Origin: an uncultured Pelagibacteraceae bacterium
Lineage (GTDB): Bacteria > Pseudomonadota > Alphaproteobacteria > Pelagibacterales > Pelagibacteraceae
DNA: 64,000 bases
NCBI GenBank assembly: GCA_902587145.1
Contig: CACIKD010000002.1
Location: forward strand, 80,072 to 144,071
Direction of reading: 5' to 3'
Shown: positions 33,481 to 35,553 of the stretch, one piece after another
Layout of the letters: every line of letters starts with the position of its first letter
Position numbering within the stretch: position 1 is the first letter of the stretch
Notes under the pieces: generated by a model
Seen by the model: only the letters and a program-made list of their open reading frames with translations
Told to the model about the DNA's origin: nothing
Database searches by the model: none
Made by a program: the position numbers and the translations under genes

Positions 33481-34185
33481 ATGAGAGAAATAACACAAAT
33501 CCGTAAACTAAGTTTATGGATTTTTTTCCTACCATTAATAGCCATTAACCTTTGTCTTTTTATATCTGTGAATCCCAGTCTTTTAGAGGGAACTATTTTT
33601 GCTGTTGATCAAATAGGAAGGTCAGGTTTTTCAATTCCTTATTTGGATGGAAGTCTTTCTATAAGCAGAGCCTCTAGAACTTTTCCTCAATATTTAATTT
33701 TTAAACCCTCAATGATTATTACTGGAATTCTTTTATTCTATTATTGGAATAATAATAATAATTTAATTTGTAAAATAAGAAATACAGAAAATTTTAAATA
33801 TAAATTTCGTATATTTGGGATACTGTCAGCAATATTTTTAATTATTCATTCAATTTTTTTAGGAGTTAAATTTGATATCCAAATTTATAAGTTATTTAGG
33901 AGAGTAGTTTTGCTTTTATTTATTATTTTTGAATTGATTGCTCAAGGTATGCTGGTTTATTATTTATTCAACATAAAATCAAAAATTTCTGATATCACAA
34001 ATAAAAAAATTCTAGTAATTAAAATGATATTAGTTTCAATTTTAGTTATTGTGGCCTTTGCCAGTCTTCCTATTTTAGTAACTAAAGGCAATACACATTT
34101 TAAACATGCTCTTGAATGGAACTATTTCGTTGGGGTAATAACTTTTTATTTATTGACGTTTTTTTTCTGGAGAAGAACCACGTAA
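33481..34185 (+). CDS. Hypothetical integral membrane protein
   Basis: 234 aa, multiple hydrophobic segments. Confidence 0.6.
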   Translation: MREITQIRKLSLWIFFLPLIAINLCLFISVNPSLLEGTIFAVDQIGRSGFSIPYLDGSLSISRASRTFPQYLIFKPSMIITGILLFYYWNNNNNLICKIRNTENFKYKFRIFGILSAIFLIIHSIFLGVKFDIQIYKLFRRVVLLLFIIFELIAQGMLVYYLFNIKSKISDITNKKILVIKMILVSILVIVAFASLPILVTKGNTHFKHALEWNYFVGVITFYLLTFFFWRRTT

Positions 34186-34361
34186 ATTTCTAGGCTTTCG
34201 CCCAGAAATTTAGTAGTTTTGGTTCGTCGTTGTAGGCGCTACCGCCGAACCCACCCGATCAACCATTTTAGCGCTACTCAGTTGACCTTTCTGCCCTTTA
34301 AGCTTGAACCTCTCGGTTTTTCCTTAATTGGCCAGTTAAGAGTTGCCTCTTAATTAATTCC
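34185..34361 (-). ncRNA. Candidate structured non-coding RNA, unassigned
   Basis: Reverse complement has hairpins closed by GCAA (34336-34353), GAGA (34307-34318) and GAAA (34184-34211) GNRA tetraloops plus GGUCAAC/GUUGAUC and GGUUCG/CGAACC stems; TATGAT -10-like at 34367-34372. Confidence 0.65.
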
Positions 34362-34422
34362 ATTAAATCATATTAAAAAAAAATATGTATCACTTATTAG
34401 TTGACTTAAATTTGCTTGTGAA

Positions 34423-35553
34423 TTAGGTGGATAAATTTTTATTAAATGTCTTGTCGATCCACCCCCCACCTAAAACTTTATCCCCAGCCTCATCATTTAA
34501 ATAGAATACACATGCTTGACCAGGTGAAATACCGCTTTCCCCATCTAAAATATTTACCTCAGCTTTATTAGTATTAATTTTTACTTTGGCTCTAAGTAAC
34601 TTTCCAGTAGATCTGACTTTAATTTTAATTTCTTTTTCTAACTCGTTCTTACTTCCTAGAATATTTAATTCTCTCAAAATTATTTTATTTATTTTTAATG
34701 CCTCCTTTGGGCCAACAACTATAGTATTATTGTTGTTGTCTATTTTTATTACATAAAGTGGATCTTTATCAGCAATTTTAATTCCCCTTCTTTGTCCAAT
34801 AGTGTAATTAATTATTCCGTCATGTTGCCCTATTACTTTTCCTTTAATATCTATAATTTTTCCAGGATTAAAAGACTCTGGTCTAAATTTTTTTATTACT
34901 GAGCTATAGTCACCATTGGGGACAAAACAAATGTCTTGGCTATCCGGTTTTTCAGCTACATTAAGATTGAGTTTTTTTGCTATATTTCTTGTTTCCATTT
35001 TTTCAATGTCTCCTAAAGGAAATCTTAAAAAATCAAGTTGGTCTTGGGTTGTGCTAAATAAAAAATAGCTTTGATCTCTGGAAAAATCCTTAGCTCTATA
35101 CATAGAGCTTTTTCCGTTAGTTTGAATCCTCTTAATATAATGACCTGTTATTAATGCGTCTGCTTTTAGATCTTTTGAATATTTGAATAAATCTCTAAAT
35201 TTAACTGTTTGATTGCATTGGACGCAAGGTATTGGAGTTTCTCCTGAAGAATAACTTTCTATAAAATTATCTATGACTTCTTGCTTAAATTTTTTTTGAT
35301 AATATAAAATTTCATGATTTATGTTTAATTGCTCAGAAACTCTTTTGGCGTCCAAAATGTCCTGTCCCGCACAACACTGTCTTCCCTCTTTGGATTGCTT
35401 AGCGTCGTCATATAATTTTAAAGTAATTCCTGTGACGTCATATCCCTCTTCTTTCATTAAACCTGCTACAACAGAAGAGTCTACGCCTCCAGACATAGCT
35501 ACAACCACTTTTGTTTTTTTTTTCGGCTTATTTATTCCTAGAGAATTGATCAT
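34423..35553 (-). CDS. mnmA: tRNA 2-thiouridine(34) synthase
   Basis: [20 protein letters not shown]-loop, [18 protein letters not shown]. Confidence 0.95.

Follow-up and report, generated by a model that had tools for sequence, protein, structure and literature searches.

The IMES-2 motif reportedly belongs to the set named 'Identified in Marine Environmental Sequences' that Weinberg et al. (Nature 462:656) found in marine metagenomes in 2009, and the same report is said to have described it as highly abundant in seawater RNA. In purine riboswitches, the L2-L3 kissing loops lay helices side by side. The genomes of SAR11 bacteria are streamlined and contain little non-coding DNA. In one published account, they rank first in abundance among the heterotrophic bacteria of surface seawater (PMC12636525). 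The bacterial RNAs GOLLD, ROOL and OLE form multimers, and loop contacts between their molecules have been documented (PMC12286853). In the full-text literature, one mention of IMES-2 was found, which concerns the giant squid genome, where the motif is a likely contaminant (PMC6962438).

The stretch of DNA analysed here, 64,000 nucleotides in length and referred to as the window, encodes such an RNA. With cmscan, the sole Rfam match in the whole window is IMES-2 (RF02035), at 34360-34219 on the minus strand, with the full length of the model covered (positions 1-141 of 141) and a score of 154.6 bits (E 1.7e-40) against a gathering threshold of 54.7 bits. The RNA also has the four consensus hairpins with covariation and is of marine bacterial origin, and it is a member of this catalogued family. 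The preliminary description had called it unassigned, pending a strong Rfam match, and that label is now replaced by a family name. It could not match the RNA to SRP RNA, 6S RNA or a tRNA, and the RNA is indeed none of these: no tRNA or tmRNA (including alpha_tmRNA) was found at the locus by ARAGORN or Rfam cmscan, the SRP RNA model (RF00169) has no cmscan match there, and the 6S RNA model (RF00013) has none in the window. In family-model searches, SRP RNA sits at other loci in 17 of 20 SAR11-order genomes. The features of the locus are as follows.

34423..35553, minus strand: mnmA (tRNA 2-thiouridylase), the upstream neighbour in the window genus (Pfam PF03054, PF20259, PF20258)
34417..34434, minus strand: tandem of TTATCCAC and AATTCACA, DnaA-box-like, overlapping the mnmA stop codon here; conserved before IMES-2 in unrelated contexts
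34387..34403, minus strand: CAACTAATAAGTGATAC, conserved -35 region (sequence comparison)
34367..34372, minus strand: TATGAT, -10-like box (sequence; position conserved in relatives)
34219..34360, minus strand: IMES-2 RNA core, RF02035 model positions 1-141 (cmscan)
34336..34353, minus strand: hairpin 1 with a GCAA tetraloop (Rfam structure; pairing in 100% of cells, two-sided changes in 4 pairs)
34291..34335, minus strand: hairpin 2 with a GAGA tetraloop and a conserved internal loop, GAAAA/CAAGC in most sequences (Rfam structure; two-sided changes in 12 of 15 pairs; internal loop counts)
34288..34294, minus strand: near-invariant GCAGAAA, spanning the last bases of hairpin 2 and the linker that leads to hairpin 3 (kept exactly by 158 of the 159 distinct sequences)
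34257..34287, minus strand: hairpin 3 with a 15-nt loop (Rfam structure; two-sided changes in 8 of 8 pairs)
34269..34274, minus strand: GCGCUA, the strand that loop 3 contributes to the loop-loop helix (sequence comparison)
34221..34251, minus strand: hairpin 4, whose stem has a conserved G.A mismatch and whose loop is 13 nt long (Rfam structure, covariation)
34236..34241, minus strand: UAGCGC, the strand contributed by loop 4 (sequence comparison)
34176..34218, minus strand: 3' terminator-like hairpin of ~18 bp with a GAAA loop, then a weak pyrimidine tract (-23.9 kcal/mol, z -6.7)
33481..34185, plus strand: convergent membrane protein gene without a Pfam match, its 3' end overlapping the terminator hairpin (ORF, Pfam search)

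The 186-nt segment folds at -58.6 kcal/mol, whereas its shuffled versions average -40.4 (z -4.8) and none of the 200 does as well. For the sequence comparison, 159 distinct IMES-2 sequences were used. With the loop-loop helix included, 93.8% of the cells of the whole structure are paired and two-sided changes occur in 32 of the 45 pairs, which beats every shuffle. The covariation is strong, and the earlier reading of the segment as a structured RNA, non-coding and on the minus strand, is right. All the minus-strand elements listed earlier are indeed present, namely UUAAGAG-GCAA-CUCUUAA, AACC-GAGA-GGUU, GGUCAAC/GUUGAUC, GGUUCG...CGAACC and a 12-bp GAAA-capped hairpin with one G-U pair. The argument for orientation, that the GNRA loops and the G-U pair exist on the minus strand only, is correct, and the locally higher G+C content was confirmed (44-46% versus about 16-36% in the flanks). 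The mismatch in the stem of hairpin 4 is G.A in 155 sequences and A.G in four, a swap as expected of a real non-canonical pair. In the loop of hairpin 3, columns 91, 101 and 102 of alignment A1 carry strongly linked bases, U/A/U and C/C/A. In the covariation scan this linkage ranks above most of the stem pairs, but it is mostly one tree event; a non-canonical contact is possible. In one copy (L158, near 272-293), the second half of IMES-2 is swapped for an unrelated sequence inside the hairpin 3 loop, and this copy is either decayed or an assembly chimera.

The loops of hairpins 3 and 4 are complementary over 6 bp (GCGCUA x UAGCGC). This pair is found in 105 of the 159 distinct sequences and UCGCUG x UAGCGC, with 5 of 6 pairs, in 33; rarer are GUACUA x UAGUAC (5), GCACUU x UAGUGC (4, five pairs), UCGCUG x UAGCGA (3) and GUGCUA x UAGCAC (1), and the remaining few combinations form four or five pairs. 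Across 38 diverse sequences, pairing holds in 94.3% of the loop-loop cells, versus 5-60% in slid registers. Of the 80 possible registers, GCGCUA x UAGCGC has the highest paired fraction. The loop bases vary little, and about five events carry the covariation for this helix. When all positions were scanned against each other with a tree null, the loop 3-loop 4 pairs were not singled out, as too few changes occur in the loops to be scored; a same-branch test targeted at the loop pairs was therefore used, with a tree from which the loop columns had been left out. It yielded five same-branch compensatory double changes where 0.98 were expected, a number reached in 2 of 20,000 simulations. In an earlier tree simulation, the fraction paired was significant (16 of 2000 as high) and the count of double-change cells was not (1183 of 2000 as high), since simulated early changes inflate that count. 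The evolutionary evidence, which is statistically supported, argues for loops 3 and 4 of IMES-2 pairing with each other.

In the Rfam structure line printed by cmscan, loops 3 and 4 are both unpaired, and the nested model has no loop-loop helix, which is therefore an addition beyond that model. Covariance models of the Rfam type never hold pseudoknots, so that an earlier description of the loop pairing elsewhere, in the 2009 depiction or another account, is possible. The preliminary description had placed an inner GUAG-CGC-CUAC hairpin in the fourth stem. This hairpin can form in the window sequence, but most relatives have GUAGCGCAUA or GUAGCGCCUAAAA instead, and according to the sequence comparison its bases pair with the loop of the preceding hairpin; as a conserved feature it was ruled out.

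The RNA core is flanked by promoter-like and terminator-like elements. The TATGAT box that had been noted upstream was located at 34372-34367 on the minus strand, and across contexts a promoter-like set, consisting of the TTATCCAC/ATTCACA tandem, AAGTGATAC and a TATGAT-type box, stays with the RNA in nearly all copies. The strict tandem pattern lies upstream of 37 of 119 IMES-2 copies and occurs four other times in 1.83 Mb on both strands, and the CAAC-ATAAAGTGATAC motif, looked for in whole genomes, is nearly confined to IMES-2. The GTGAT anchor has no clear match before four copies (L074, L076, L025 and L030). A promoter motif common to other genes was considered and rejected, as the other matches lie mostly inside coding sequence, at control frequency, and no other RNA families were found at the matches away from IMES-2. 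Tandem DnaA-box-like repeats of the TTATNCAC type stand ~60-75 nt before the predicted RNA start (34434-34417 on the minus strand in the window), and they are also found upstream of IMES-2 in L031-L128 and others, despite unrelated neighbour genes. On the other side, the 12-bp GAAA hairpin described earlier is present but actually extends to ~18 bp (34218-34176), is terminator-like and lies outside the Rfam core, since the RF02035 model ends before it; the hairpin is kept in relatives with changing sequence, and a U-run then follows in most Pelagibacter copies.

Three gene neighbourhoods have been observed: mnmA with the convergent membrane gene in three genera, among them that of the window, integrase-like and MGMT-like genes in Pelagibacter, and SelO-like and nuclease-like genes in two genera. 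The last four neighbours were named by sequence recognition rather than family search and are presumably what these names say. The earlier placement downstream of mnmA thus holds for the window genus and two others but not for Pelagibacter proper and two further genera. A constant downstream sense gene, as in a riboswitch or cis-regulatory leader, was not found across the three contexts, and the downstream gene in the window is convergent, so there is no cis target there. As the promoter and terminator are kept while the neighbour genes differ, IMES-2 is most likely its own gene, a stand-alone unit and not an mnmA 3' UTR or a riboswitch. At Pelagibacter (g6) loci, for example L257 and L089, the start codon of the MGMT-like gene lies a few bases past the IMES-2 terminator, and this gene may be leaderless or dependent on read-through.

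When named genomes were scanned for a conserved IMES-2 sequence, at least 119 stretches matched, and all the carriers among the matches listed belong to Pelagibacteraceae or Pelagibacterales (SAR11). Within the order, IMES-2 occurs in 200 of 397 genomes, which belong to 6 of 13 genera, in one copy per genome, and in a class sample of 385 genomes every match lies within Pelagibacteraceae. A single IMG/VR pattern match proved not to be IMES-2, and viral carriage was rejected. In the window genus, 46 of 61 assemblies have the RNA; of nine IMES-2-free assemblies examined, eight are without mnmA too and in the ninth mnmA is matched only in part. The absence in those nine therefore looks like assembly gaps, and IMES-2 appears near-universal in this genus. 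Several complete single-contig genomes of Pelagibacter proper are truly without it, also under our broader model R1, which in RF02035-negative genomes revealed no diverged IMES-2 but two weak matches at chance level (E 0.2-0.3). The empty site is clean: in L264-L266, a small membrane protein gene directly adjoins the MGMT-like gene, and carriers hold the RNA unit between the two. Its absence from complete Pelagibacter genomes means that IMES-2 is dispensable there, which argues against an essential housekeeping role. As the RNA and its own promoter are kept in many streamlined genomes, it is probably useful to the SAR11 cell.

We propose, with a probability of about 0.5, that IMES-2 is a trans-acting RNP scaffold or protein-sequestering RNA of ~180 nt, single-copy and independently transcribed. 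Pairing of loops 3 and 4 would lay helices 3 and 4 side by side, similar to the L2-L3 contact of purine riboswitches, since the neighbouring helices of 8 and 9 positions are joined by a short linker and have paired loops. The resulting rigid platform could display the GCAGAAA linker and the internal loop of hairpin 2, both candidate protein contacts, to a putative protein partner, and the RNA would then act as an RNP scaffold or protein-sequestering regulator, not by antisense pairing of its loops. This protein-scaffold step we infer from conservation only.

That IMES-2 is a small RNA which pairs with mRNAs and regulates them by way of conserved single-stranded segments, for instance GCAGAAA or the loops, is unlikely, though it deserves serious consideration: the stand-alone gene with promoter and terminator is sRNA-like and unpaired segments are conserved, but the conserved loops are occupied by each other and the fold is more elaborate than that of typical antisense sRNAs. 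The loop 3-loop 4 pairing could also occur between molecules and lead to dimers or chains made of RNA only, comparable to the multimers of GOLLD, ROOL and OLE, for which such contacts are on record (PMC12286853). Covariation cannot separate intra- from intermolecular pairing, and loop 3 in most members also contains the perfect palindrome UAGCGCUA (duplex -10.9 kcal/mol); nevertheless, adjacent hairpins with a short linker are able to pair inside one molecule, and several lineages have lost UAGCGCUA yet retain the loop 3-loop 4 pairing. We consider dimers or chains of this kind rather improbable, and a UAGCGCUA self-dimer of loop 3 was dismissed as a conserved feature because the palindrome is lost where the pairing persists.

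Two further explanations find very little room. The two GUAGCGC loops might be two copies of one protein-binding motif, unpaired with each other, as GUAGCGC is common to both loops in most sequences and both are GUAGUAC in two lineages; since GCGC and GUAC are palindromic, these identical-loop cases fit pairing and a protein motif alike. Complementary but non-identical loops in L063 (GUGC/GCAC), L072-L076 (GCAC/GUGC) and L071, L157 and L180 (UCGCUG/UAGCGA) speak against a repeated protein site, which was discarded on this ground. A cis-acting element, either the mnmA 3' UTR or an attenuator of the next gene, is just as hard to credit: the RNA lies on the same strand behind mnmA in three genera and close before the MGMT-like start codon in Pelagibacter, but it has three unrelated neighbourhoods with the promoter-like element conserved throughout, and the downstream gene in the window is convergent. 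More speculatively, IMES-2 could be a SAR11-specific global regulatory RNA with a previously undescribed kissing-loop core. A near-unique promoter of its own, with DnaA-box-like sites in tandem, would drive it, and it might act on transcription or growth state in bacteria where no 6S RNA is detectable; we consider this reading improbable. For the structure and function of IMES-2, the loop-loop helix supplies specific point mutations for testing, and the Pelagibacter carrier map with its clean empty site provides natural presence/absence pairs.

Compared with 6S RNA, IMES-2 is similar in size and is likewise a stand-alone gene, but it consists of several small hairpins whereas 6S is one long hairpin with a central bubble, and there is no model match. 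A 6S family search that was positive in Caulobacter and E. coli found none in 20 SAR11-order genomes; 6S may be missing from SAR11 or may have a form there that goes unrecognised. IMES-2-free SAR11 genomes are also without detectable 6S, so IMES-2 is not a simple 6S replacement. With the purine riboswitch it shares neighbouring hairpins of similar length, a short linker and paired loops; it has neither the closing helix P1 around the pair nor a cis-regulated gene, and the likeness lies in the geometry only. Ornate bacterial RNAs of poorly understood function also include GOLLD, ROOL and OLE, in whose structures loop-loop contacts are important (PMC12286853), but IMES-2 is several times smaller. 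The closest system is the RF02035 motif itself, with which the window RNA agrees in its full-length match, four hairpins and marine host. The family was already known; to its model are added here the loop 3-loop 4 helix, the flanking promoter and the terminator hairpin, and with them the host assignment, the transcription-unit anatomy and the presence/absence pairs.
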